From positions 1,589,766-1,653,765 of the forward strand of contig NZ_LHCI01000106.1 in assembly GCF_001280255.1 (NCBI RefSeq): a stretch of DNA of 64,000 nt, in the 5' to 3' direction. The DNA is from Thermus aquaticus. GTDB lineage: Bacteria; Deinococcota; Deinococci; Deinococcales; Thermaceae. Shown here in pieces: positions 48,478-61,617 of the stretch. Under the pieces are notes generated by a model, which was given only the letters and a program-made list of their open reading frames with translations, was not told the DNA's origin and did not search any database. Numbering within the stretch: the first letter of the stretch is position 1; every line of letters starts with the position of its first letter. A program made the position numbers and the translations under genes.

Positions 48478-49233
48478 CTACCGGGCCGTCCAACCCAGGT
48501 CTATGGGCAAGACCGCCCCGGTGATGGCCGAGGCCTTCTCCGAGGCCAGGAAGAGGGCCAGCTCCGCCACCTCCTCGGGCTCAATGAGGCGCCGGATGGC
48601 CGCCTGGGCCAGGAAGACCTTCTCCGCCACCTCCTCAGGGGAGATCCCCAGGGTGCGGGCCTGGTCCTGGATCTGGCCCTCCACCAGGGGGGTGCGCACG
48701 TAGGCCGGGGCGATGGCGTTCACCGTGACCCCGTAGGGGCCGGCCTCGAGGGCCACGGTCCGGGTGAGGCCCACGAGGCCGTGCTTGGCCGAGATGTAGG
48801 CGCTTTTATAGGGGCTCGCCACCAGGCCGTGGACGCTGGCCACGTTGATGATCCGCCCCCATCCCCTGGCCTTCATGCCGGGGATCAGGGCCTTGATGAG
48901 CTGGAAGGGGGCGGTGAGCATCACCTGGACCATGGCCTGCCAGGTCTCTAGGGGGAAGGCCTCCACCGGGTCTATGTGCTGGAAGCCGGCGTTGTTGACC
49001 AGGATGTCCACCCCCAGCGCCGCCGCCTCCTTCCCCAAAGCCTCCACCGCCTGCGGATCGGCGAGGTCCGCCTGGAGGAAGACCCCGCCCAGCTCCTCGG
49101 CCAGCCAGCGGGCGTCCTTCACGTCGTGGACCAGAACCCTCGCCCCCTCCCGGGCGAAGGCCCGGGCCATGGCCAGGCCGATGCCGCTCCCCGCCCCCGT
49201 GACCAAAACCGCCTTTCCCGAAAGTATTCCCAT
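48478..49233 (-). CDS. bdhA: D-3-hydroxybutyrate dehydrogenase
   Basis: 251-residue SDR. TGAGSGIG cofactor motif, NNAG, and the stretch INVASVHGLVASPYKSAYISAKHGLVGLT, which is diagnostic for 3-hydroxybutyrate dehydrogenases (catalytic Ser/Tyr/Lys inside it). It converts D-3-hydroxybutyrate to acetoacetate with NAD+. Last gene of the large operon; begins 9 nt after livF. Together with the PHB depolymerase gene upstream it indicates growth on 3-hydroxybutyrate units. Confidence 0.93.
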   Translation of the reverse strand: MGILSGKAVLVTGAGSGIGLAMARAFAREGARVLVHDVKDARWLAEELGGVFLQADLADPQAVEALGKEAAALGVDILVNNAGFQHIDPVEAFPLETWQAMVQVMLTAPFQLIKALIPGMKARGWGRIINVASVHGLVASPYKSAYISAKHGLVGLTRTVALEAGPYGVTVNAIAPAYVRTPLVEGQIQDQARTLGISPEEVAEKVFLAQAAIRRLIEPEEVAELALFLASEKASAITGAVLPIDLGWTAR

Positions 49234-49242
49234 GGCCCCAAT

Positions 49243-49947
49243 CTACAGGCTCAGGTACGCCTCCCGCACCCGGGGGTCTTGGGCCAGCGCCGAAGCGGGG
49301 CCTTCCAGCACCACCTTCCCGTGCTCCAGGACGTAGCCCCTCTCGGCCACATCCAGGGTGAGGGCCACGTTCTGCTCCACCAAGAGCACCCCCACGCCTT
49401 CCCCCGCCACGGCCTTGAGGGCCAGAAGGACCTCCTCAGCGAGCCTCGGGGAAAGGCCCAGGGAAGGCTCGTCCACCAGCAGGATCTTGGGAAAGCCCAT
49501 AAGGGCCCGGCCGATGGCCAGCATCTGCTGCTCCCCACCGGAAAGCGTCCCCGCCAGCTGCCGCCGCCTCTCGGCCAGGCGGGGAAAGAGGCCGTAGACC
49601 CGCTCGTAGCCCTCCCGCTCCCGCCCCGGGGCCAGAAAGACCGCCCCCAGCCTCAGGTTCTCCTCCACGGTCATAAGGGGGAAAAGCTGCCGCCCCTCGG
49701 GCACGTGCCCTAGGCCCATCCGGGCCCTTTTGGCGGGGGAAAGCCCTCCGAGGTCCTGCCCCTCCAAGAGGACCCGGCCCGACCAGGGCCTCACCAGACC
49801 CGATATGGCCCGAAGAAGCGTGGTCTTCCCCGCCCCGTTGGCCCCTAGGAGGGCCACAAGCTCGTTCTCCACCACCTCCAGGTCCACGCCGAAGAGGACC
49901 TGGGCCTTGCCGTAGCCCGCCTCGAGGGCCTCCACCCTAAGCCTCAT
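49243..49947 (-). CDS. livF: Liv-type ABC ATPase LivF, hydroxyacid operon
   Basis: 234 residues: Walker A GANGAGKTTLL, signature TLSGGEQQMLAIGRALM, Walker B ILLVDEPSLGLSP, LVEQN switch. Overlaps livG by 4 nt (ATGA). Second copy of this subunit in the window; the protein differs clearly from the one at 31.1 kb. Confidence 0.94.
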   Translation of the reverse strand: MRLRVEALEAGYGKAQVLFGVDLEVVENELVALLGANGAGKTTLLRAISGLVRPWSGRVLLEGQDLGGLSPAKRARMGLGHVPEGRQLFPLMTVEENLRLGAVFLAPGREREGYERVYGLFPRLAERRRQLAGTLSGGEQQMLAIGRALMGFPKILLVDEPSLGLSPRLAEEVLLALKAVAGEGVGVLLVEQNVALTLDVAERGYVLEHGKVVLEGPASALAQDPRVREAYLSL

Positions 49948-50669
49948 GCCCGCCTCCCCAGGTAGGCCTCCCGCACCCTCTCCTCCCGGGCCACCTGCTC
50001 GTAAGGCCCCTCGGCGATGACCTCCCCGTAGTCCAAGACCACCACCCGGTCCGCCAAGGCCCGCACCACCGGCATCAGGTGCTCAATGAAGAGAACGCTG
50101 ACCCCGGCGTCGCGGATCCGCCGCACCAGGTCCACCGCCTCCTGGGCCTCCTTGGGGCGGAGGCCCGCCATGACCTCGTCCAGGAGGAGGACCTTGGGGC
50201 CGGTGGCCAGGGCCCGGGCCAGCTCCAGGCGCTTGTCCTCCAATAGGGTGAGCTCCCCCGCCGGAGCCTCGGCCTTGGCGGCCAGGCCGGTGAGCTCCAA
50301 AACCGCCTCCACCCTGGCCTCCGCCTCCTTCCGGCTTCGACCCGGCCTGCCAAAAAGCGCCCCCACCAGCAGGTTCTCCCGCACGGTGAGCTCGGGCAGG
50401 GGGGTTGGGATCTGGAAGGCCCGGCCCAGGCCCAAATGGGTGCGGGCCTCGGGGGGGAGGGGGGTCACGTCCCGGCCCAGGAAGAGGACCCGCCCCGCAT
50501 CGGGCCGAAGAAGGCCGGAGATCACGTTGAGCAGGGTGCTCTTCCCCGCCCCGTTGGGGCCGATGACCGCCAGGATCTCCCCCTCCTCCAGGTGGAGCGT
50601 GACCCCCTGCAGGGCCTTCAGCCCGAGAAAACGCTTGGACACCCCTTGGACCTCTAAGACCTTAGCCAC
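49944..50669 (-). CDS. livG: Liv-type ABC ATPase LivG, hydroxyacid operon
   Basis: 241 residues. Walker A GPNGAGKSTLL, LivG-type GRAFQIPTPLPELTV, degenerate signature region LTLLEDKRLELARALA, Walker B VLLLDEVMAGL, His-switch FIEHLMPVV. The DEVMAG variant of Walker B is common in LivG. GTG start; 8-nt overlap with livM. Confidence 0.93.
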   Translation of the reverse strand: MAKVLEVQGVSKRFLGLKALQGVTLHLEEGEILAVIGPNGAGKSTLLNVISGLLRPDAGRVLFLGRDVTPLPPEARTHLGLGRAFQIPTPLPELTVRENLLVGALFGRPGRSRKEAEARVEAVLELTGLAAKAEAPAGELTLLEDKRLELARALATGPKVLLLDEVMAGLRPKEAQEAVDLVRRIRDAGVSVLFIEHLMPVVRALADRVVVLDYGEVIAEGPYEQVAREERVREAYLGRRA

Positions 50670-51558
50670 GCCGCCTCCTCCAGAGCCCCAGAAGCCCCCG
50701 GGGCAGAAACAGGATGGCCAGGATGAGGATGGCCCCGTAGACCACCAGGTACCCCTCCTGGATCCAAAGCCTCAAGACCTGCTCCAGCCCCACCAGGACC
50801 ACGCCCCCAAGAAGGGGGCCCAGGGTGGTGTAGAGCCCGCCGAAGATGGGGATGACCAAGGCCTCCACGGCCCGCCCCAGGCTGAAGGCCTCGTAGGGGT
50901 TGATGAAGAGGGCCTTCATGGCGTAGACCCCGCCCGCCAGGCCCGCTACCAGGCTTCCCAGGAGGAGGGAAAGGAGCTTCACCCGCACCACCCGCACCCC
51001 CAAAACCCGGGCCACGGGCTCGGACTGCCGGCAGGCCGCCTGGGCCAGGCGGAAGGGGCTGTGCTCCGCCCAGAGGCTGAGACCTACGGCCACGGCCAGA
51101 ACCGCGAAGGCCAGGTAGTAGGGCGCCAAAGGCGCACCGCCGAAGGCCGGGGGAACGGGAAGGCCGATGGGCCCGCCGGTGAAGGGGAGCTTCAGGGCCA
51201 GGGTCCTCAGCACCTCGCTGAAGGCCAGGCTGGCGATGGCGAAGTAGAGGCCGTGGAGCCTCAAGGTTACCGAACCCAGGAGGAGGGCGAAAAACCCCGC
51301 AAGCAGGCTCCCCAAGGCCAGAGCGGGGAGGGTCCCCACGTGGGGCACGAGGAGCCCCACCCCATAGGCCCCAAGCCCAAAGAAGGCGCCATGGGCCAGG
51401 GAGAGCTGGCCGGTGCGGGCCACCAGGTCCCAGGAGAGGGCCAAAGCGGTGTAAAGGAGCAGGAAGACCCCCGCGTCCAGCAGGTAGGCCCGCCAGACCC
51501 CGAGGGGCAGGAAGGGCAGGAGGACGAAGACCAGGAGGAAGAGGACCACCCCCCTCAT
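50662..51558 (-). CDS. livM: Liv-type ABC permease LivM, hydroxyacid operon
   Basis: 298 residues, about nine membrane helices; TGQLSLAHGAFFGLGAYGVGLL is the LivM motif and VLGVRVVRVKLLSLLLGSLVAGLAGGVYA the coupling segment. ATG 51558 overlaps the livH stop as ATGA with GGAGGT upstream; a GTG two codons earlier is less likely. Confidence 0.93.
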   Translation of the reverse strand: MRGVVLFLLVFVLLPFLPLGVWRAYLLDAGVFLLLYTALALSWDLVARTGQLSLAHGAFFGLGAYGVGLLVPHVGTLPALALGSLLAGFFALLLGSVTLRLHGLYFAIASLAFSEVLRTLALKLPFTGGPIGLPVPPAFGGAPLAPYYLAFAVLAVAVGLSLWAEHSPFRLAQAACRQSEPVARVLGVRVVRVKLLSLLLGSLVAGLAGGVYAMKALFINPYEAFSLGRAVEALVIPIFGGLYTTLGPLLGGVVLVGLEQVLRLWIQEGYLVVYGAILILAILFLPRGLLGLWRRRRG

Positions 51559-52412
51559 CCCCACCTCCAGGCCCGGCCCACCAGGGCCAGGAAGAGGACC
51601 AGGAAAAAGACCGCTTCCACCAGACCCCCACCCCCCGGCACGTAGGTGCTCACCAGGGCCTCGGCCAGGGCCAGGACCAAGGCGGCGGGCATGACCCCCC
51701 TCAGGTTGCCGAGCCCCGCCAGGGCCACGATGGCGAAGGACTTGAGGGTGAAGAGAAAGCCCACGGTAGGGCTGGCGTAGAGCATCACCGAGAGCATCAC
51801 CCCCGCCACCCCGGCCAAGGCCGCCGCCAGGCCAAAGGCCAAAAGATAGACCCTCTCCGCCTCAATGCCCAAAAGCCCGGGGGCCAGGCGGTTCTGGGCC
51901 ACCGCCCGCATGGCCAGGCCCAAGGGGGTCCGGGTGAGGAAGGCCTGGAGTAGAAGGAGCAAGGCCAAAGAGAGAAGGAAGGCCCCCAGGGGCACCGCCC
52001 CCAGGAAGAAAGGCCCCAGGGCCAGGGTCGCCGCCTGGTAGGGCGGGGCCACCACCCGGGTGTCGGCCCCGAAGAGGAGGAGGGCCAGGTTCTGCAGGAG
52101 GATGGAAAGCCCGAAGGTGAGGAGCATCTGGTTGAGCTCCGGGGCCTTGAGGACGGGGCGGATGAGGCCCCAGTAGGTGAGGGCCCCCACCAGGAAGGCG
52201 GCCAGGAAGGCCAGGCCCAGGGCGAGGAGGGGGTCCACGCCCCGGGCGGCGTAGAGCAGGTAGGAGAGGAAGGCCCCCACCATGAGGAACTCTCCGTGGG
52301 CGAAGTTGACGATGCCCACCACCCCCAGGGAGAGGGCAAGCCCGGTGGCCACCAGGGCATAAACCCCAGCTATGAGGAGGCCGTTCAGGAGGGTCTGGAG
52401 AAGGAGCTCCAT
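51555..52412 (-). CDS. livH: Liv-type ABC permease LivH, hydroxyacid operon
   Basis: 285 residues from ATG 52412 (MELLLQTLLNGLLIAGVYAL). LSLGVVGIVNFAHGEFLMVGAFL is the LivH motif; RAVAQNRLAPGLLGIEAERVYLLAFGLAAALAG is the coupling loop. Unlike the livH at 31.9 kb, this frame is intact, including the C-terminal LVFFLVLFLALVGR-type helix. It follows the binding-protein stop by 1 nt (TAGCATG). Confidence 0.94.
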   Translation of the reverse strand: MELLLQTLLNGLLIAGVYALVATGLALSLGVVGIVNFAHGEFLMVGAFLSYLLYAARGVDPLLALGLAFLAAFLVGALTYWGLIRPVLKAPELNQMLLTFGLSILLQNLALLLFGADTRVVAPPYQAATLALGPFFLGAVPLGAFLLSLALLLLLQAFLTRTPLGLAMRAVAQNRLAPGLLGIEAERVYLLAFGLAAALAGVAGVMLSVMLYASPTVGFLFTLKSFAIVALAGLGNLRGVMPAALVLALAEALVSTYVPGGGGLVEAVFFLVLFLALVGRAWRWG

Positions 52413-52413
52413 G

Positions 52414-53610
52414 CTAGCGCAGGTAGTACTCCCCAGGGTAACGGAGGGGCACACTGGCCTTGTCCTTGGGGAAGACCGGACGGCGGGTTCCCTGGATGTA
52501 CTGGAACTGGAACCAGATCTCCGGCCCGAAGCCCTGGTACCGGGTCTTGCCGGTGTCCGAGGGCTTGAAGCTCAGGGGGCCAAAGGGCGTGTTCATCTTG
52601 AGGGCGCTCAAGGCCTCGGCGATCCGGTTCTTGTCGGCGCTCCCCGCCCGCTCGGCGGCCAGGGCCAGGCTCTTCACAATGGTGTAGCCCATGGGGGCCA
52701 TGTACTCCTCCGTCACCTCCCCGTACTTGTTGCGGTAGGCCTGGACGAAGCGGCGGGACTCGGCGTTGGGCACCGTGGGGAGCCAAGCGGTCATCCCCGC
52801 CACGTCCTGGGAGAGGGGGTTTTTCTCAAAGCCGATGGGCCAGGAGGGCGGAGCCCCGTAGATGAGCTTGGGCCTGAGCCCCACCTGCCGGGTCTGGGTG
52901 GCGATGGGCAGGGCGTCTACATCGTATCCAATCCAGTAAAGGATATCGGGGGCGAAGGCCCGGAAGCGGGTGAGGATGGGGGTGAACTGGCCGCTGCCCG
53001 CCTTGTAGGGCTCCGCCTGGACCTGGTAGCCCAGGCGCTCCAGCTGCTGCCTGTAGACCCCGATCCCCGCCGAGCCGAAGGGCCCGTCCTCGTAAAGGAT
53101 GGCCACCTTCTTGGCGCCGTGCGCCTGGTTGAGGTACTGGAAGAACTGGAGGGCGGCGGTCACGTTGTGGTAGTCCCACGGGTGGTAGTGGAAGAAGAGG
53201 GGGTAGCCCTCAAAGGCCTGCTCCACCACGGAGGAGGCGGCCCCGATGCAGAGGAAGAGGGGGCCGTACTGCTTCACCGGGCCCGAGAGGGCGAAAGCCA
53301 CGCTACTGGCCAGCCCCCCGATGACGATGTCCACCCGGTCCACGGTCATGAGCTTGGTGAAGGCGGGCACCGCCTTGGCGGGGTCGGTGCCGTCGTCCAC
53401 CACCACCAGCTCCAGGCGTACCTTGCCGGCGGCGTTCACCTCGTCCGCCGCCAGCTGGATGCCGTTCAGGGCCGCCTTGCCCGAAACGGCGGAGACCCCC
53501 GAGAGGGGCAGGATGACCCCCACCTTGACCTGGGTCTGAGCCCAGGCCATACCCACCAAACCGACCATACCTACAAAACCGACGAGAAGCGCCCACTTGA
53601 TCCCTTTCAT
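52414..53610 (-). CDS. Liv-type substrate-binding protein, hydroxyacid operon
   Basis: 398 residues with a Sec signal peptide (LVGFVGMVGLVGMAWA|Q). Family-6 binding protein: VKVGVILPLSGVSAVSGKAA, VVVDDGTDPAKAVPAF, VAILYEDGPFGSAGIGVYRQ. The specificity is not readable, but it lies in an operon with a PHB depolymerase and 3-hydroxybutyrate dehydrogenase, so the ligand may be 3-hydroxybutyrate or its oligomers rather than an amino acid. AAGGAGGT precedes the ATG; the gap to the depolymerase gene is 12 nt. Confidence 0.92.
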   Translation of the reverse strand: MKGIKWALLVGFVGMVGLVGMAWAQTQVKVGVILPLSGVSAVSGKAALNGIQLAADEVNAAGKVRLELVVVDDGTDPAKAVPAFTKLMTVDRVDIVIGGLASSVAFALSGPVKQYGPLFLCIGAASSVVEQAFEGYPLFFHYHPWDYHNVTAALQFFQYLNQAHGAKKVAILYEDGPFGSAGIGVYRQQLERLGYQVQAEPYKAGSGQFTPILTRFRAFAPDILYWIGYDVDALPIATQTRQVGLRPKLIYGAPPSWPIGFEKNPLSQDVAGMTAWLPTVPNAESRRFVQAYRNKYGEVTEEYMAPMGYTIVKSLALAAERAGSADKNRIAEALSALKMNTPFGPLSFKPSDTGKTRYQGFGPEIWFQFQYIQGTRRPVFPKDKASVPLRYPGEYYLR

Positions 53611-53622
53611 CCCTACACCTCC

Positions 53623-54600
53623 TTATCGGCTCGCAAGCCAGCGGCTTGCGATGATCCCGCTCGCGTCCGGCCCCGAGGGGTCGGTGTAGCTTCCGCTGGG
53701 GTCGCCCCCGGGCCAGCGGTGGTTCATGCCCTGGATCAGGTAGAACTCGGCCAGCGTCCACTGGCCGTCCCGAGCCGTTCTCAGGCTCACGTTGCGCCCG
53801 CCCATGCTGACGGTGCTCCTGCTCTCTGTCCATCCCGAAATGATCCCGCAGTAGCGGTGGGCGTAAAGCCAGTGCAGGTAGACCTGCTGCCCATTCACCG
53901 GGTTCACGGTGGTGTCCGCGTCCCCGTGGAAGACGGCGAGAGGGATGCGGTAGGCCCGCCCCCAGGCCTGGCAGACCTTGGCCCCCTGGGCCTGCGGGTC
54001 CGGCCCCCCCTGTTGCATGGCCAGGAACGCCCCGTAGGGGGTCTCCGCCGCCTTGTATTCCAAGCCCGCCACCACGCCCAAAAAGGCGAAACGCTCGGGA
54101 TAGGCCGCAGCCAGGATCACTGCCATGGCCCCTCCGGCGGAAAGCCCCGCCACCCCTATCCGCGACCCGTCCAAACCGAAGCTCCGGGCCAGATCCCGGG
54201 CCATGTCCGCAAGAAGGGCGGCCTCCCCGCTCCGGCCCTGGTTGAGGGAGTAAAACCAGTTCCAGCACCGGCTGGCGTTGGCCAGGAACGACTGCTCCGG
54301 GTAGAGGACGGCAAAGCCCAGGGCGTCGGCCACTCGGTCCATCCGGGTGCCTAAGGCGAAATCAGCGGCGGTCTGGGTGCACCCGTGGAGCATGACCAGA
54401 AGGGGAAGCTGTCCGGCCGCCGGACGGTAGAGGCGGTAGCCGCGGGTGCCCCAGGGATGGGTGTACGTCCCCACCGTCACCTGGCCCGAGCCCGCAGGCC
54501 TCACCTCGGCCGGGGCAGAAGGAGCGGGGCTCTGCCCGCACCCCGCAAGGACCCCAAGCGCCAAAACCGCTGCCACCCAAGCCCAGCTCATCCTTCCCAT
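53623..54600 (-). CDS. Secreted lipoprotein PHB depolymerase / esterase
   Basis: 325 residues. The N-terminus WAWVAAVLALGVLAGCGQ carries a lipobox (LAGC), so the enzyme is lipid-anchored outside the membrane. The catalytic domain is of the PhaZ/LpqC esterase family: oxyanion loop LPLLVMLHGCTQTAADFA, nucleophile GVAGLSAGGAMA, Asp in VFHGDADTTVNP, His in GMNHRWPGG. This family cleaves extracellular poly(3-hydroxybutyrate) and related esters. The start may be ATG 54591, which overlaps the hydratase stop as ATGA. Next genes are a dedicated importer and 3-hydroxybutyrate dehydrogenase. Confidence 0.88.
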   Translation of the reverse strand: MGRMSWAWVAAVLALGVLAGCGQSPAPSAPAEVRPAGSGQVTVGTYTHPWGTRGYRLYRPAAGQLPLLVMLHGCTQTAADFALGTRMDRVADALGFAVLYPEQSFLANASRCWNWFYSLNQGRSGEAALLADMARDLARSFGLDGSRIGVAGLSAGGAMAVILAAAYPERFAFLGVVAGLEYKAAETPYGAFLAMQQGGPDPQAQGAKVCQAWGRAYRIPLAVFHGDADTTVNPVNGQQVYLHWLYAHRYCGIISGWTESRSTVSMGGRNVSLRTARDGQWTLAEFYLIQGMNHRWPGGDPSGSYTDPSGPDASGIIASRWLASR

Positions 54601-54995
54601 AGGACCTCCGCCTCGCCTTCGATCACCCGCTCCCCCCTCTGGTTCTCACAGAAGGTGTCCAGCGTGAGCACATACCCTCCCTTCTCCCGCTCCCGCACCG
54701 CCTTGAGGACGGCGGTGGCGGTGATGGTGTCCCCGAGGCGAACGGGTTTCAGGAAGCGCAGGGTCTGGCCCAGGTAGATGGCCCCCACCCCGGGGAGCCT
54801 GGTCCCGATGACCGTGGAGATGAGGCCCGCCACCAGAATGCCCTGGGCGATGCGCCCGCCGAAGCGGCTCCTTTTGGCGTAGGCCTCGTCCACGTGGAGG
54901 GGGTTGGTGTCCCCCACCGCCCCCACGAAGAGGGCCACGTGGGCCTCGGAGATGGTCTGGGTGTAGCTGGCCCGGTCCCCTACCCGAAACCTCAT
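54588..54995 (-). CDS. MaoC-like (R)-enoyl-CoA hydratase (PhaJ type)
   Basis: 135 residues, single hot-dog domain with GDTNPLHVDEAYA and FGGRIAQGILVAG; the catalytic His of the usual RIAHG motif is Gln here (RIAQG), while Asp and the first His are kept. Start 54995 has GGAGGT 6 nt upstream and overlaps the hydrolase stop (ATGA). PhaJ-type enzymes interconvert crotonyl-CoA and (R)-3-hydroxybutyryl-CoA, which fits the operon. Confidence 0.9.
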   Translation of the reverse strand: MRFRVGDRASYTQTISEAHVALFVGAVGDTNPLHVDEAYAKRSRFGGRIAQGILVAGLISTVIGTRLPGVGAIYLGQTLRFLKPVRLGDTITATAVLKAVREREKGGYVLTLDTFCENQRGERVIEGEAEVLWEG

Positions 54996-55723
54996 GGGGC
55001 CACCTCCTTCAAAAAGTCCTCCAGGATGGCCTTGAGCCGCGCCGGGTCCTCGAGGTTCAGGGAGTGGCCCACCCCCTCCAGCACCATGAGCCTGCCCTTG
55101 GGGAAGAAGGCCTTTGTCTCCTCGGCCATGGCCCTGGTCACGATGGGGTCCAGGGTTCCGTAGAGGACCAGCACCGGGCCAGGGTAGGCGCGGGAGGCCC
55201 GCCAGGCGGCAAGGGCCCGAGCGTTCCCCTGATAGTGGGCGGGGTGCATCCTCTGGGCGCAGTCCACCAGCTCCGGGAACCATGGGGGGCGGTGGGTGGG
55301 GGCCATGGCCGCAAGGGCCTGGGCCAGGGCCTCGCGGTTATACCGGTAGGACTCCAGGATGGGGTAGTAGGCCTCGGGGGTCTCAAGGCCCGAGGGCGGG
55401 GCGGAGTTTAGGAGGACAAGCCCCCGGGTCTTCTCCGTGGCCGCCTCCATCACCACCGCCCCGCCCAGGGAGTGGCCCACCAGGACCGCCTCCTCCACCC
55501 CCATCTCCCGGAGAAAGCCCCGGAGGGCCTCGGCGTAGGCGGGGATGGAGGGGACGAAGCCCTCGGGGGCCGGGGTCTCCCCGAAGCCGGGGAGGTCAGG
55601 GGCCAGGAGCCGGGCCCCGTCCGGGGGGTCCTGCAAAAGGCCTCGCCACCACGCCTTGCAGGCGAAGTTGCCGTGAACCAGAACCACGGGTGTTCCCTGT
55701 CCAGCCTCCAGATAGCTAAGCAT
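54992..55723 (-). CDS. Alpha/beta hydrolase, hydroxyacid operon (second)
   Basis: 243 residues, intracellular. Oxyanion region VVLVHGNFACKAWW, nucleophile VLVGHSLGGAVV, Asp in LVLYGTLDPIVT, His in GVGHSLNLEDP. Overlaps neighbours by 8 and 4 nt. Could hydrolyse 3-hydroxybutyrate oligomers or a CoA ester; which is not readable. GGAGGAGGT precedes the ATG. Confidence 0.9.
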   Translation of the reverse strand: MLSYLEAGQGTPVVLVHGNFACKAWWRGLLQDPPDGARLLAPDLPGFGETPAPEGFVPSIPAYAEALRGFLREMGVEEAVLVGHSLGGAVVMEAATEKTRGLVLLNSAPPSGLETPEAYYPILESYRYNREALAQALAAMAPTHRPPWFPELVDCAQRMHPAHYQGNARALAAWRASRAYPGPVLVLYGTLDPIVTRAMAEETKAFFPKGRLMVLEGVGHSLNLEDPARLKAILEDFLKEVAP

Positions 55724-56489
55724 ATACCTCCTCCAAGAAAGTCCGGACTTCCCGGGCGAAGGCCTGGGGGTCCTCGAGGGGGGCAGCGTGCCCGGTGGGC
55801 AGGGCGGCAAGCCTGGCCCCAAGGCTCTCCGCCAGGGCCTGGGCGTAGGCCTTGGGGAAGAGGAGGTCCTCCTCCCCGTAGAGGACGAGGGCGGGGAGGG
55901 TGAGGGCCTTCAGATGCGGCCTCAGGTCCTCCAGGGTGAGGAAGCCCTGAAGGAGCCGCTCCTGGGCCGCCTCTCCCGGGGCCTGGGCGGCCAGGGCCTT
56001 AAGGCCCTCCTCCGCGAGGAGCTCGGGGTGGGTATTGAGGAACCGGGCCCCGAAGACCCAGGGCAGGGCCACCCGGAGGCGGAGGGGAGTTCCCCCCGCC
56101 CTGAGGGCATGGAGCCAGCTTTCCACCTTGACCCGGAGGGCCGGGTCCAGGTAGGGGGTGGTGCAGGCGAGGGCCAGGCCCCTGACCCTTTCCGGGGCGA
56201 GAAGGGCCAGGGCCATGGCCACGATACCCCCGTTGGAAAGCCCCACCAGGGCGGCCTCCTCCCACCCCAGGCGGTCCAGGAGGCCGAGGAGGTCCTCGGC
56301 GTGGAGCCTCGGGGTGTAGGGCCCCTCCGGGGCCTCGCTTTCTCCCTGGCCCCGCATATCGTAGCGGAGAAGGGCGAAGCCCTTAAGGTGGGGAAGGACC
56401 GGGTCCCAGCTCTCCAGGCGCTGGAAGATGCCGTTGAGGAGGACCACCTTGGGCCCCTCGCCCACCACCTCGTACCTAAGCCTCACCAT
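55716..56489 (-). CDS. Alpha/beta hydrolase, hydroxyacid operon (first)
   Basis: 257 residues. VVLLNGIFQRLESW, nucleophile ALVGLSNGGIVAMALA, Asp in LVLYGEEDLLFP, His in PTGHAAPLEDP. Pattern resembles carboxylesterases and 3-oxoadipate enol-lactonase-like enzymes. It overlaps the acyl-CoA ligase gene by 14 nt and is distinct in sequence from the second hydrolase. Confidence 0.9.
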   Translation of the reverse strand: MVRLRYEVVGEGPKVVLLNGIFQRLESWDPVLPHLKGFALLRYDMRGQGESEAPEGPYTPRLHAEDLLGLLDRLGWEEAALVGLSNGGIVAMALALLAPERVRGLALACTTPYLDPALRVKVESWLHALRAGGTPLRLRVALPWVFGARFLNTHPELLAEEGLKALAAQAPGEAAQERLLQGFLTLEDLRPHLKALTLPALVLYGEEDLLFPKAYAQALAESLGARLAALPTGHAAPLEDPQAFAREVRTFLEEVYA

Positions 56490-57960
56490 GGGCCTCCTCC
56501 CAAAGCCTCTTCAAGGCCTCCTTGTTGACCTTGCCCGGCCCGGTCTTGGGAAGCTCCTCCAGGAAGACCACGTGCTTGGGCACCTTGTACCCGGCAAGGC
56601 GCTGGCGGAGAAAGGCCCTCAGGGCCTCGGCCTCGAGGGTCTCCCCGGGCTTTAAGGCCACGAAGGCCGCCCCCCCCTCCCCCCATCTGGGGTCGGGGAC
56701 CCCCACCACCGCCGCCTCCTTCACCGCCGGGTGGTCGTAGAGGACCCTTTCCACCTCCACCGGGTAGACGTTCTCCCCGCCGGAGATGAACATCTCCTTC
56801 CTGCGGCCCACGATGTAAAAGCGCCCCCCCTCGTCCCGGTAGGCCAGGTCCCCGGTCTTGAGCCAAAGCCGCTCCCCGTCCCAGGCGAAGACCTTCTCGT
56901 TCTCCTCCGGGCGGCGGAAGTAGCCCTTCATGACCACACCCCCGGAAAGCCAGAGCTCCCCCGCCTCCCCTATCCCCGCCTCCTTCCCGTCCTCCCGCAC
57001 CAGGCGCGCCCTCAGGTGGGGCATGGGGCGGCCCACGCTCTCGGGGTAGGCCTCGGCCTCCGCCAGCTCAAAGGCGAAGCAGTTCACCCCGCACTCCGTG
57101 AGGCCGTAGCCCTGCTTGAAGCGCACCCCCTTCCTGCGGAAGGCCTCCCGCACCGGGGCCGGGCAGGGGGCCCCGCCGGAGATGGCGAAGCGGACGAAGC
57201 CGAGGTCCAACCCCTCCCAGCCCTCGGCCTCCGTGAGCATCTGGAACATGGTGGGCACCAGGAAGAGGATGGTGGGCCGGAAGCAGCGGGTAAGCTCCAG
57301 GTACTCCTCAGCCCGGAAGCGCTCCATGAGCACCACCTGCCCCCCCAGGAAGAGAAGGGGGGTGGCCAGGGCGTTGAGGGCGGCGTGGAACATGGGGGTG
57401 GCCAGGATGTAGCGGTCCTCCCGGGAAAGGCCCCAGGCCGCCGCGGTCTCCAGGGCGTTCAGCAGAAGCTGGCGGTAAGGGATGAGGGCCCCTTTGGGCA
57501 GGCCGGTGGTCCCCCCGGTGAAGAGGAGGAGGGCGGGGTCTTCCAGGCCCACGGAAAGGGCTTCCGGAGCCTCTTCTCCCTCCTCCAGGGCCTCGAGGGG
57601 GAGGGCCTTGGGGTCCAGGGCCAGGGCCACCTCGCCAAACCCCTCTCCGTAGAAGAGGACCCTGGGCTCCGTGTAGGCGTGGAGGGCCTGGAGCTCGGGG
57701 AGGCTTAAGCGGTGGTTGAAGGGGGTGAGGATGTGGCCCAGAAGAGGCCCGGCAAAGAGGAGGTCTAGGTAGGCCAGGTGGTTGTGGGAGAGAAGGCCCA
57801 CCCGGTCCCCCGGGCCCACGCCCAGGGCCCTGAGAGCTCCCGCCGCCCGCCTGGCCCTCTGGTAGAGCTCCCCGTAGGTGTACCAGTGCTCCCGGAAGAA
57901 GAGGGCCCTTCGCTCCGGGTGCTGGGATGCCAGCCAGGCCATGCGGTTGGGCTCAAGCAT
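56476..57960 (-). CDS. AMP-forming acyl-CoA ligase, hydroxyacid operon
   Basis: 494 residues, ANL superfamily: P-loop LLLFTGGTTGLPKGALIPYR, A5 YGLTECGVNCF, A7/A8 KTGDLAYRDEGGRFYIVGRRKEM, catalytic Lys in TGPGKVNKEALKRL. Start 57960 (MLEPNRMAWL) overlaps the KASIII-like gene by 8 nt with GGGAGG upstream. Substrate likely a short or medium hydroxy or keto acid given the operon. Confidence 0.92.
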   Translation of the reverse strand: MLEPNRMAWLASQHPERRALFFREHWYTYGELYQRARRAAGALRALGVGPGDRVGLLSHNHLAYLDLLFAGPLLGHILTPFNHRLSLPELQALHAYTEPRVLFYGEGFGEVALALDPKALPLEALEEGEEAPEALSVGLEDPALLLFTGGTTGLPKGALIPYRQLLLNALETAAAWGLSREDRYILATPMFHAALNALATPLLFLGGQVVLMERFRAEEYLELTRCFRPTILFLVPTMFQMLTEAEGWEGLDLGFVRFAISGGAPCPAPVREAFRRKGVRFKQGYGLTECGVNCFAFELAEAEAYPESVGRPMPHLRARLVREDGKEAGIGEAGELWLSGGVVMKGYFRRPEENEKVFAWDGERLWLKTGDLAYRDEGGRFYIVGRRKEMFISGGENVYPVEVERVLYDHPAVKEAAVVGVPDPRWGEGGAAFVALKPGETLEAEALRAFLRQRLAGYKVPKHVVFLEELPKTGPGKVNKEALKRLWEEAHGEA

Positions 57961-58960
57961 AAAGCCTCCCCTCAAGCTTCAGCACCGCCGCCCCGTAGAA
58001 GTACCCCACCCCCGCCGCCGCCAAGGCCACCAGGCTCCCCTCCTTAAGCCTCCCTTCCCGCCAGGCCAGCTGCAGGGAGAGGATGGGGTCCAGCTGGCCC
58101 AGGTGGCCGTAGTCCTCGAGGTAGATGGACTGCCCCTCGGCGAGGCCCAGGCCCTGGAGCACCTTTTGGTGGGCGGAGCGCTTCATGTGGAGGAGGGCCA
58201 GGTAGTCCAGGTCCGCCTCCCCGTACCCGGCCTCCTCCAAAGCCTCGCGAACCACCTCCAGGAAGGTGGGGATGGAGGTGGCGTCCAGCCTGGCCTTCAT
58301 GGCCTCGGGGTCCTCCACCCTTAGGCAGTACTCCCCCAGGTTCTCCTGGGTGAGGGGGCGCCTGGTTCCCCCCACGGGGACCTTGACGGAGAGGGCCAGC
58401 TCGGGGTCCATGCGGTGGGCCAGGCCCAGGAGCCTGAGCCCGGGCCCCTCCCGGGTGAGGAGGGCGGCGGCCCCGCCCGCCGCCAGGTCGTAGAGAAAGC
58501 GGGTGTGGGGGTCTTGGTAGTCCACCAGGTCCCCGTTCCGGTACCCCCCGGCCACCAGGACCGCCTGGGCCTCCTTCCGGGTGGCGAAGAGGCCCCGGGC
58601 CACCTCCAGGGCCCCCAGGAAGGTGGCGCACTTCTGGTTCAGGTCCAGCCCCCTGGCCCGGTGGGCCCCCACCCGGAGGGCCAGGTAGGGGGCCGTGGCC
58701 CAGACGGGGTAGTCCTTATATTCCTCCACCATGGAAAGCACCCAGTCCACCCCCTCACCGGGGAAGCCCGCCAGCCTCAGGGCCTCCTCGGCGGCCCAGG
58801 CCGCCATCTCCGCCGGGTGGTCCTCGGGACCGGGCACGGGCTTTTCCCGGATGCCGAGCTTCTCCCGCACCACCTCCACGGGCAGACCCGACGAGGCGGC
58901 GATCTCCTCCGCCGTCATGCGGCCTCTCGGCAGGTAAACCCCAAGGCTTCGCACGTACAT
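57953..58960 (-). CDS. KASIII / HMG-CoA-synthase-like thiolase-fold enzyme
   Basis: 335 residues, FabH-like. Nucleophile Cys111 in LDLNQKCATFLGALEVARGL; His259 in LALLHMKRSAHQKVLQGLGL; the third catalytic position, normally Asn in GNTSAAS, is His287 (YGHLGQLDPILSL). This identifies a divergent KASIII subgroup rather than housekeeping FabH. It would condense or cleave an acyl-CoA with an acetyl/acetoacetyl partner; the reaction is unknown. First gene of the 12-gene operon, with TACCCT 8 nt before the ATG. Confidence 0.85.
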   Translation of the reverse strand: MYVRSLGVYLPRGRMTAEEIAASSGLPVEVVREKLGIREKPVPGPEDHPAEMAAWAAEEALRLAGFPGEGVDWVLSMVEEYKDYPVWATAPYLALRVGAHRARGLDLNQKCATFLGALEVARGLFATRKEAQAVLVAGGYRNGDLVDYQDPHTRFLYDLAAGGAAALLTREGPGLRLLGLAHRMDPELALSVKVPVGGTRRPLTQENLGEYCLRVEDPEAMKARLDATSIPTFLEVVREALEEAGYGEADLDYLALLHMKRSAHQKVLQGLGLAEGQSIYLEDYGHLGQLDPILSLQLAWREGRLKEGSLVALAAAGVGYFYGAAVLKLEGRLYA

Positions 58961-58968
58961 CTGCCCTT

Positions 58969-59016
58969 AGGGTAGCGGGGGGGCGTTACACGCCCGTTAC
59001 ACCCCCGTTTCCCCCA
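58969..59016 (-). promoter_or_regulatory. Operon promoter with three 11-bp direct repeats
   Basis: Three copies of CGTTACAC/CGTTACAC/CGTTTCCC begin at 58984, 58995 and 59006, exactly 11 bp apart. The copy nearest the operon lies 9 nt upstream of TACCCT (58974-58969), the -10 for the KASIII-like gene. Direct repeats at 11-bp period about 8 bp upstream of a -10 are the known site layout for SARP activators, and the divergent gene encodes a SARP-type domain. Confidence 0.65.
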
Positions 59017-59037
59017 GGGTTCGGCCAAAATGGAGGT

Positions 59038-61617
59038 GTGCCCTACCCGGTGCCCCCCTCGAGGCTCCGCCCGCCCCGCACCGCCCGGGAGGTGTCCCGC
59101 CTCCGCCCCCTGGGCCTGGTGGAGGCCGCCTTTGGCAAAAGCCCGGGGGTGGTCCTGGCGGCAGGGCCCGGCTACGGCAAGACCAGCCTGGCGGCGGAGA
59201 TGGGCGGGATTTACCTGGCCCTGGCCGAGGAGGCCAAGGACCCGGCGGTCTTCCTCTGGCACCTCCTCTACGCCTACCGGGACCGGGCCGGGCTCTCGGA
59301 GGCCGCCCGCCTGCTGGAAGGGGGAGCCTGGCCCCGGGCCCTCGAGGCCTTCCTGGAGGCCCTGGAACCCCTGGGCCCCCAGCTTCTCGTCCTGGACGAG
59401 GCCCATAGGGCGGAAAGCCCCGGGGTCCTGAAGGCCCTGGAGGGGCTCTGCCGCCTCCCCTCTCTGCGCCTCCTCCTCCTCTCCCGCAAGGCCGCCCCCT
59501 TCGCCTTCCTCACCGTCCTAACCGAGCAGGAGCTGGCCTTTGACCCCGAAGAGGCCTGGGCCCTGGCCAAGGCCCTGGCCCCGGAGCTCCCCGCCTTTGA
59601 GGTGGAGCGGGCCCACTCCCTGGTGCGGGGCTGGCCCCTGGGCCTCCGGGTCGTCCTCTTGGCCATGCGCCGGGGCCTAAGGCCTGAGCTCGCCCTGGAG
59701 AGCGGGGAGGGCCTCCTCACCTATCTGGCCTACGGCCTTCCCCAGGAGCTCCTCCTAAAGGCGGCCCGGCTCGCCCTCCTGGGGGAGGTGCCGGAGGAAG
59801 AGGCCCAGGACCTCCTCCCCTACGCCGAGGACCTCCTCCTGGAGCGCAGGCCGGGCAGGCTGGCCTTCCACCCCCTGGTGCGGAGCGCCCTCAAGGCCCT
59901 TCTGCCCGAGGCCGAGGCCCGGGAGCTTCTGGCCCAGGCCGCCGAGACCGCCCTCCACCAGGGCGAGGGGGTCCGGGCGGCGGAGTTCCTGCTGGAGGCC
60001 GGGCGCTTCGGCCACGCCGCCGACCTCCTCCTCAAGGAAGGGCAGGCCTGGCTTGAGCGGGGCCTCACCTACACGGTCCTCAGGCTCCTCGCCCACCTGC
60101 CCGAGGGGGTGAGGCGGGGGCGGACGGGGCTATTCCTCCTCGAGGCCGAGGCCCTGCGCCAGGCGGGGCGGTACCGGGAGGCGGAGGCCGCCTACCAGCG
60201 GGCCCTGGAGGCGGGGGAGGGCCGGGCCTACCTGGGCCTGGTGCGCCTCTTCCTGGACACGGTGGAGCCCGCCCGGGCCAGGCCCTACCTGGAGGAGGCC
60301 CTGAAGCGCTTCCCCGAGGAGGCGAGCCCCCTCCTGGCGGAAAACCTCCTCAACGAGGGGCGGCCAGAAGAGGCCCTCGCCCTTGGGCTTTCTGGCCCCA
60401 GGGTTCTCCTCAGGCTGGGCCGGCCCGACGAGGCCCTGGCCCTCCTCAAGGAGGCCCAGGACCCGGGCCTCCACCGCCCGCCCCAGAACCACCGGGAAGG
60501 GACCCTACTCCGGGCCCTCCTGGAGTGCGTGGCCGGGGATGCGGAAGAGGGCCTGCGCTTCGCCGAGCGGGGCCGTTTTGAGGCCGAGGTCCTGGGAAGC
60601 CCCTTCGGCGTGAGCCTGGCCGAGGCCAGGAAGGGGCACGCCCTCCTGGCCCTGGGGCGGCCCGCCGAGGCCCGGGGAGCCTACCAGACGGCCCTGGCCC
60701 TGGCCGAGGGCGGACCCGCCCGCCTCCGGGTGGAGGCTCTGGGAGGATTGGCCGCCCTGGGGGACCGGGAGGCCTACGGAGAGATGGTCCGCCTGGCCCG
60801 GGCGGCGGGGGACCTCTGGGTGGAGGGGTTCATGACCCTGGTGGTGGCCCTGGCCTGGCTCCGCCGGGGAGAGGCCTTCCCTCTGCCTCCCCTGGAGCTC
60901 CTGGACCCCTTCCTTAGGGCGGTGGCCCAGGCTTACCCCTTCGCCGACGGTTTTGAAGGGCTCCTTCTCCGCTACCCCTTCCTCGCCGGCCGCACCCTCT
61001 TTACCCCGCCGCTTCCCCGGCTACGCCGGGGCCTCTGGCGCCTGGGACGGCTCCCCGAGGCCTACCACCCCGGGGTGTCGGTGGAGATTCGGACCCTGGG
61101 AAGCTTCCAGGTCCTGGTGGAGGGGAGACCCGTGCGCCTGCGCCGGGAGAAGGCCAGGCTCCTCCTGGCCCTTCTGGCCGCACGGGACTGGCACAAGGAG
61201 GACCTCCTGGAGGCCCTAGAGGCCTCCCCGGGGGAGTTCCGGGTCCTCTGGTGGGAGGTGGTGAACGCCCTGGAGCCCGGCCGCCCCAAAGGGGCACCTC
61301 CCTACTTCCTGCGGGCCCGCCCCTACGGCCTCCGCCTCGAGGTCCCCGAGCTCTACCTGGACCTCCTGGACCCCAAGGCCCCCCTGGACCTCCCCTTCGC
61401 CGACCTGGACCACCCCGCCCTGGAGGAGCGCCGCCTGGCCTACCTGGCGGAGAAAAGGCGCCTCCTGCGGCAGGGCCAGGACCTGAGGGGCTGGCTCGCC
61501 CTCCTCCGGCTGGACCCCCTGAACGAGGAGGCCTTCGCCCGGCTCCAGGGAAGCCCCCTGGCCCAGGAGGCGGAACGGCTCCGGCAGGAGGCCCTGCGGG
61601 AGCTGGGCCTGGGCTAA
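59038..61617 (+). CDS. MalT/SARP-like ATPase-TPR transcriptional regulator
   Basis: 859 residues. N-terminal STAND-type ATPase: Walker A LAAGPGYGKTSLA (~41-52), Walker B LLVLDEAHRAES (~118). Middle (~290-650): TPR-like helical repeats. C-terminal ~679-760: VSVEIRTLGSFQVLVEGRPV, RLRREKARLLLALLAARDWH, a SARP/OmpR-type winged helix, followed by a short BTAD-like helical domain. MalT-type regulators oligomerise on an inducer plus ATP and activate divergent genes. GTG 59038 is only 1 nt after GGAGG; GTG 59050 is an alternative start. Controls, by position, the 12-gene operon. Confidence 0.88.
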   Translation: MPYPVPPSRLRPPRTAREVSRLRPLGLVEAAFGKSPGVVLAAGPGYGKTSLAAEMGGIYLALAEEAKDPAVFLWHLLYAYRDRAGLSEAARLLEGGAWPRALEAFLEALEPLGPQLLVLDEAHRAESPGVLKALEGLCRLPSLRLLLLSRKAAPFAFLTVLTEQELAFDPEEAWALAKALAPELPAFEVERAHSLVRGWPLGLRVVLLAMRRGLRPELALESGEGLLTYLAYGLPQELLLKAARLALLGEVPEEEAQDLLPYAEDLLLERRPGRLAFHPLVRSALKALLPEAEARELLAQAAETALHQGEGVRAAEFLLEAGRFGHAADLLLKEGQAWLERGLTYTVLRLLAHLPEGVRRGRTGLFLLEAEALRQAGRYREAEAAYQRALEAGEGRAYLGLVRLFLDTVEPARARPYLEEALKRFPEEASPLLAENLLNEGRPEEALALGLSGPRVLLRLGRPDEALALLKEAQDPGLHRPPQNHREGTLLRALLECVAGDAEEGLRFAERGRFEAEVLGSPFGVSLAEARKGHALLALGRPAEARGAYQTALALAEGGPARLRVEALGGLAALGDREAYGEMVRLARAAGDLWVEGFMTLVVALAWLRRGEAFPLPPLELLDPFLRAVAQAYPFADGFEGLLLRYPFLAGRTLFTPPLPRLRRGLWRLGRLPEAYHPGVSVEIRTLGSFQVLVEGRPVRLRREKARLLLALLAARDWHKEDLLEALEASPGEFRVLWWEVVNALEPGRPKGAPPYFLRARPYGLRLEVPELYLDLLDPKAPLDLPFADLDHPALEERRLAYLAEKRRLLRQGQDLRGWLALLRLDPLNEEAFARLQGSPLAQEAERLRQEALRELGLG

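Follow-up and report, generated by a model that had tools for sequence, protein, structure and literature searches.

To our knowledge, SARPs have been studied almost only in Actinobacteria, and there as N-terminal domains. AfsR of Streptomyces coelicolor acts on afsS at a 22-bp box that is centred at -29.5 and consists of two 11-bp repeats at -40 to -19; two SARP domains sit there side by side, contacting the first 8 bp of each repeat, with the 3' repeat 8 bp from the -10 element (PMC10936776). AfsR thereby replaces the -35 contact of sigma region 4, and its NOD and TPR parts exert an inhibition that ATP relieves (PMC10936776). PimR, a Streptomyces SARP-LAL, combines a SARP domain with a LAL-type ATPase and uses heptameric direct repeats with 4-bp spacers (PMC5930380). 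Within the genus Thermus, the nitrate-respiration regulator DnrS of Thermus thermophilus carries a C-terminal BTAD, and transcription of nar and dnr depends on it genetically (PMC5748679). Its DNA binding has resisted assay, and no site is known for it (PMC7694296). DnrS apart, we found nothing useful in the literature on C-terminal SARP architectures.

In this study, we analysed a 64-kb stretch of the Thermus aquaticus genome (the window), in which a large regulator gene faces a divergent operon across a gap of 77 bp. The regulator comprises the following features:

59038-61617, plus strand: regulator gene P0001, 859 aa, GTG start at 59038 and stop at 61617; STAND/MalT-like ATPase, TPR middle and predicted C-terminal SARP-type domain
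59041-59700, plus strand: P-loop STAND ATPase region, with Walker A GPGYGKTS at residues 43-50 and LLVLDEAHRAE at about residues 116-126
59900-60900, plus strand: TPR region (Pfam TPR_16, TPR_2 and TPR_1 above cut-off)
61069-61614, plus strand: predicted C-terminal SARP-type domain, a winged helix at approx. residues 680-768 followed by a BTAD-like helical tail

The initial annotation had proposed an N-terminal P-loop ATPase, a TPR middle and a C-terminal SARP-type winged helix with a BTAD-like tail, and all three parts are supported. The Walker A motif is visible directly in the sequence and is kept among orthologues as GxGYGKT, the NCBIfam MalT model matches residues 7-212 (E 5.3e-9, 34.7 bits, far under its cut-off of 537), and the TPR matches in Pfam are above cut-off. 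The P-loop ATPase stands where DnrS has its GAF domain, which is absent here. In a fold search with a full-length AF2 model, the best PDB matches were the STAND-TPR protein PH0952 (6mfv, E 1.4e-10) and MalT (8bob_C, E 2.3e-6). Because this full-length model was weak (pLDDT 66), the C-terminal domain (residues ~676-859) was modelled separately, using the last 182 residues and seven orthologues (pLDDT 78.6, pTM 0.70). The six top PDB matches that Foldseek returned for the isolated domain were AfsR (8hvr/8k60) and EmbR (2ff4/2fez), followed by OmpR-type winged helices, the top match having a modest E of 9.8e-3 at prob 0.99. The putative recognition helix of the winged helix, GEFRVLWWEVVNAL, is almost invariant among orthologues.

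Sequence models did not see this domain: neither Pfam nor NCBIfam detected the winged helix in the complete regulator at E<=1, Pfam returned zero matches to BTAD and Trans_reg_C (E<=1 for the full protein, E<=10 for the domain alone), the LuxR-type helix-turn-helix GerE was not found by Pfam, and a PDB sequence search matched the STAND/TPR part but not the C-terminal domain. We therefore dropped a Pfam/NCBIfam assignment of the DNA-binding domain in favour of fold comparison, and the SARP-type label rests on the fold and on paralogues. An HH alignment connected the domain with the same region of paralogues from the same and other genomes at E 1e-8, and three paralogues of the same architecture, all from other genomes, pass the Pfam cut-off for BTAD. 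Taken as a prediction, the fold supports a winged helix of the OmpR type with a BTAD helical domain behind it, as in SARPs. A second protein with the order STAND-TPR-C-terminal SARP, of 884 aa, is encoded in the same genome (G000:C106:1235832-1238483; L172:5333-7984) and is widespread in Thermus. These Thermaceae paralogues share the architecture, several with a C-terminal BTAD above the Pfam cut-off, but differ in their surroundings, as the GTAAC 11-bp repeat described below was not found within 12-13 kb around their genes.

The regulator resembles AfsR in holding a SARP-type winged helix with BTAD, a STAND ATPase and TPRs in one protein (PMC10936776), whereas AfsR has the order SARP-NOD-TPR with its SARP domain N-terminal and the predicted domain of the Thermus protein is C-terminal. 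With PimR it has in common the joining of a SARP DNA-binding domain to a LAL-type ATPase, as well as heptamers spaced by 4 bp (PMC5930380), but in PimR the SARP domain is N-terminal, the heptamer is CGGCAAG and the operator lies clear of the -35 region. The N-terminal STAND ATPase, TPR-like sensor and C-terminal DNA-binding domain are those of MalT and the LAL family, as also seen in MalT being the second PDB fold match, but MalT ends in a LuxR/GerE helix-turn-helix and the Thermus regulator in a predicted SARP-type winged helix plus BTAD. By analogy, then, the protein can be regarded as a large SARP whose SARP-type domain is not N-terminal, or as a MalT/LAL body without the LuxR head. The idea that this domain order is unlike that of classical SARPs holds as far as the fold places the domain at the C-terminus, but there is a precedent for a C-terminal BTAD in the same genus, namely in DnrS (PMC5748679), although DnrS is oxygen-responsive and carries an N-terminal GAF domain instead of the STAND ATPase.

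On the other side of the gap, a minus-strand run of 11-12 tightly packed genes extends from 58960 down to 48478:

57953-58960, minus strand: gene 1, P0002, 3-oxoacyl-ACP synthase III-like (NCBIfam PRK06840, 450 bits, cut-off 315)
56476-57975, minus strand: gene 2, acyl-CoA ligase, AMP-binding (Pfam/NCBIfam)
55716-56489, minus strand: gene 3, alpha/beta hydrolase (Pfam)
54992-55822, minus strand: gene 4, alpha/beta hydrolase (Pfam; real start probably downstream of the listed one)
54588-54995, minus strand: gene 5, MaoC-like hydratase (Pfam; start inferred inside the ORF 54588-55283)
53623-54600, minus strand: gene 6, PHA/PHB-depolymerase-type esterase (NF050058, 260 bits, cut-off 150)
52414-53610, minus strand: gene 7, Leu/Ile/Val-type substrate-binding protein (Pfam)
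51555-52454, minus strand: gene 8, LivH-type permease
50662-51564, minus strand: gene 9, LivM-type permease
49944-50669, minus strand: gene 10, LivG-type ATPase
49243-49947, minus strand: gene 11, LivF-type ATPase
48478-49233, minus strand: probable last gene, SDR-family reductase (same place in several relatives)

Judging by these genes, the operon would take up a carboxylic acid or ester and activate it with CoA. Downstream of the box described below, the synthase, ligase, hydrolase(s), MaoC, binding protein, LivHMGF and SDR genes are kept in six genomes of other genera. The PHA-depolymerase-type gene is outside this conserved core: it is missing from the operon of most relatives examined, with a partial match in T. 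composti.

The gap itself contains three repeats at an exact 11-bp period, which on the plus strand read CGTTAC (58984-58989), CGTTAC (58995-59000) and CGTTTC (59006-59011) and which in the operon-strand reading correspond to TGTAACG:

58984-59000, minus strand: conserved two-copy box, 11-bp direct repeat, operon strand (T)GTAACGGGCGTGTAACG
59006-59011, minus strand: third, degenerate copy GAAACG (CGTTTC on the plus strand), not kept elsewhere
58969-58974, minus strand: -10-like element TACCCT, 9 nt downstream of the box and 8 nt ahead of the ATG

The 9-nt distance proposed between the repeats and the operon -10 element proved exact, counted from the last repeat base (58984) to TACCCT (58974-58969), and the operon ATG follows at 58960-58958, so that with TACCCT 8 nt before the ATG the promoter would be near-leaderless. 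In the window, GTTAC-N6-GTTAC is found a single time, with 0.01 expected from shuffles, and the three-copy pattern likewise a single time, with 0.00 expected. We looked for a consensus -35 element at the operon promoter and found none, as expected of an activator-dependent promoter. If TACCCT occupies -12 to -7, the two heptamers come to lie at -39/-33 and -28/-22, within the bases that AfsR contacts. The SARP site layout suggested by the initial annotation thus agrees with the published geometry, in which AfsR likewise binds two 11-bp direct repeats over a poor -35 element at a near-identical distance from the -10 element (PMC10936776). The repeats themselves differ, being of the CGTTCAT type on the coding strand for AfsR versus TGTAACR in Thermus, as do the targets, a secondary-metabolism gene in the one case and a putative uptake/catabolic operon in the other. 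By comparison with AfsR, the 9-nt spacer, the 11-bp phase and the lack of a -35 element all fit an activator of this type.

We found regulator orthologues in 17 of 27 Thermus genomes, in further genera and in one further family of the order Thermales, and the first operon gene in 16 Thermus genomes, in 20 from other genera within the same family and in 2 from a second family (f4). All 38 of these genomes, which belong to the two families with the regulator, carry GTAAC-N6-GTAAC-N10-TANNNT directly upstream of this gene; being related, they are not independent samples. The 11-bp phasing, set beforehand as the refutation test, is therefore kept throughout, with the heptamer 9 nt from the -10 element in all 38 promoters. 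Alignment of the 37 distinct promoters yielded the consensus TGTAACR-N4-TGTAACR-NCC-N6-TANNCT with flanks at background level; the search pattern itself imposed GTAAC, TA and T, while the T before GTAAC, the purine after it and the CC were unselected. These unselected positions are fixed too, with T before GTAAC in 36/37 and 33/37 promoters and R after it in 37/37. Only two of the three repeats are conserved in orthologous promoters, and we accordingly rejected a three-repeat operator: the exact three-fold period holds in the window, but the third copy (CGTTTC) belongs to this sequence and not to its orthologues. The repeat is short and lies in a GC-rich intergenic region, which might let it pass for chance or a mutational by-product devoid of function, but the 0.01 expected in the window and a spacing fixed over several genera and two families while the flanks are randomised make this reading negligible.

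Across the 27 Thermus genomes, the full pattern occurs at most once each; it is present in 17, in 16 of them at this promoter and in the remaining one (G022) at another promoter class, and a reversed control pattern gave 0 matches. No full-pattern match was found in 10 of the 11 Thermus genomes without the first gene, and each 16-18 kb stretch examined from six genomes of other genera has a single box. One match in the T. aquaticus genome (C106:670007) falls inside a coding sequence that looks M23-peptidase-like by eye, and we discounted it as a chance match. In a third family (f5), which has no full regulator orthologue, the 12 examined homologues of the first gene (~50% identity) have no such repeat upstream; as these homologues seem to sit inside other operons, they form a soft control.

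Co-occurrence points the same way. Every genome of the regulator-bearing families that has the operon's first gene also has the regulator, whole or partial, and within Thermus Fisher's test gives p = 9e-7, a value on which we do not rely, since it ignores relatedness. The two Thermus genomes that break the pairing contain broken genes. In T. scotoductus DSM 8553 (G017; L181:7764-10542), a deletion fuses the operon SDR, at its residue 161, to regulator codon 6; operon, box and the first five regulator codons are gone, the footprint of whole-operon loss, and the regulator gene that remains lacks both start and promoter. In T. parvatiensis (G016; L180:3354-5427), the regulator lacks residues 281-784, the DNA-binding domain included, and the first operon gene and the box remain, this gene being the only one of the operon seen near the regulator.

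GTAAC repeats with other spacings stand at other promoters, some of them in genomes without the regulator, and the motif alone therefore does not name its binding protein. OmpR/PhoB-type response regulators and CarH/LitR-type photoreceptors (CarH having a known site in T. thermophilus) both use 11-bp-phased direct repeats, and the T. aquaticus genome encodes six proteins above the Trans_reg_C cut-off, so that another winged-helix or MerR-type protein might bind the box while the neighbouring regulator acts elsewhere. We regard this as unlikely: there is one such site per genome, and it goes with the presence of the regulator and the operon, as would not be expected of a general factor, and the neighbouring regulator itself has a fitting predicted fold, with its AfsR and EmbR matches. 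In three Thermus genomes (G004, G007 and G014; L182:9472-12489, L183:5868-8810 and L040/L194), an AfsR-like gene of ~1000 aa with an N-terminal SARP domain directly faces the box; in G004 and G007 it separates the box from the C-terminal-SARP regulator, and the contig is broken in G014. Judging from this arrangement, the AfsR-like SARP could use the box, a real ambiguity for those three genomes.

The regulator adjoins the first operon gene in 13 Thermus and 7 other genomes, and in 15 other genomes the two are apart, the box remaining with the operon; no box was found within 150 nt upstream of any unlinked regulator examined. This arrangement supports assigning the box to the promoter of the divergent operon and not to that of the regulator. 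The link between regulator and repeats drawn in the initial annotation thus gains from conservation and co-occurrence, but with the box placed at the target promoter and not at the regulator's own. That the box overlaps the RNA polymerase site and in many genomes lies between two divergent promoters would also suit a repressor, or a regulator that controls its own gene. Both SARPs and MalT act as activators, though, the operon promoter has no -35 consensus, and the box is missing upstream of the regulator wherever the genes are apart; we rejected autoregulation as the main role on this last ground and hold repression or autoregulation to be quite improbable.

Taken together, we consider it very likely that the 859-aa protein is a dedicated STAND-type activator of the divergent acyl/ester-uptake operon, acting in the SARP mode on the conserved box. 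Since the geometry is the same as that of AfsR on afsS, direct activation by the SARP mechanism offers the best explanation, from which we infer binding, activation and an inducer as follows. The inducer, for which a carboxylate or acyl-CoA derived from the operon substrate is the likeliest candidate, would together with ATP relieve autoinhibition by the ATPase and TPR parts. Two C-terminal SARP-type winged helices would then dock next to each other on the two TGTAACR copies, around -39/-33 and -28/-22. There they would cover the place of the absent -35 element and keep sigma region 4 and RNA polymerase at the -10 element TANNCT. This would be the "sigma adaptation" of AfsR, delivered from a domain at the opposite end of the chain.

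GTAACG repeats at 11 bp also occur elsewhere, with 51 forward or reverse matches of a CG-anchored pattern in the 27 Thermus genomes against 2 for the control. The sites fall into further promoter classes:

Class B (L090:2318-4916, L075, L081, L084, L087, L094, L096, L102, L105, L073): GTAACG direct repeat at 11 bp, spacer of about 10 nt to TANNNT, conserved leader GAGGGCGTCCTGAGAGGCCACCACCTC
Class C (L091:3994-4074, L074, L077, L082, L085, L086, L093, L095, L101, L103, L104): three copies of GTAACG at spacings of 8 and 11, a -10-like TANNCT about 12 nt further downstream, conserved leader CCTGGTCTCATTAGACCGGATT
Class D (L076, L088, L092, L097, L098, L099): GTTAC repeats in opposite orientation to a downstream GCTACCCT

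Class B promoters precede the gene of a 277-aa secreted protein (secreted-protein operon) at 10/10 sites and face a divergent gene for a ~540-aa protein whose N-terminus is a SARP-like winged helix and whose remainder is ATPase-like, and class C promoters are flanked by the genes of a 629-aa TPR protein and of a ~419-aa secreted protein. Class D sites are found at radical-SAM/SPASM peptide-maturation loci with ABC transporter genes, several of them close to the gene of a ~490-aa TPR protein that ends in a SARP-like domain; by gene content, these loci look like a regulated RiPP cluster. The class D site of T. aquaticus itself (L079:2232-3964; G000:C106:~772600-774400) is near MFS transporter genes and small ORFs, which share VKEM..EVxVGGRxRRV leaders and are candidate peptide precursors. 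In HH comparisons, the C-terminal domain of the regulator gave weak E values of 0.016-0.04 against the candidate regulators of the N-terminal type, and the STAND-TPR-SARP paralogues matched the TPR-SARP type at a fair E of 2e-5. We tentatively put forward, as a possibility more doubtful than probable, a lineage-wide SARP code of the Thermaceae in which differently built SARP-type regulators—with the domain C-terminal on a STAND/TPR chassis, C-terminal on TPR alone or N-terminal on an AAA chassis—act at 11-bp-phased GTAAC repeats before divergent operons. If true, SARP sigma adaptation would be an ordinary promoter mode far outside Actinobacteria, whatever the position of the domain in the chain.

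In this group of thermophiles, genome comparison links a single SARP-type regulator to a single target promoter in each genome, at a box whose geometry matches the structure of AfsR with RNA polymerase. This opens the question, with heat-stable proteins, of whether SARP sigma adaptation works from the opposite end of the chain, and likewise that of which DNA site is used by DnrS and other Thermus regulators with a C-terminal BTAD. For the organism itself, it provides the probable control switch of an unstudied acyl/ester-uptake operon.
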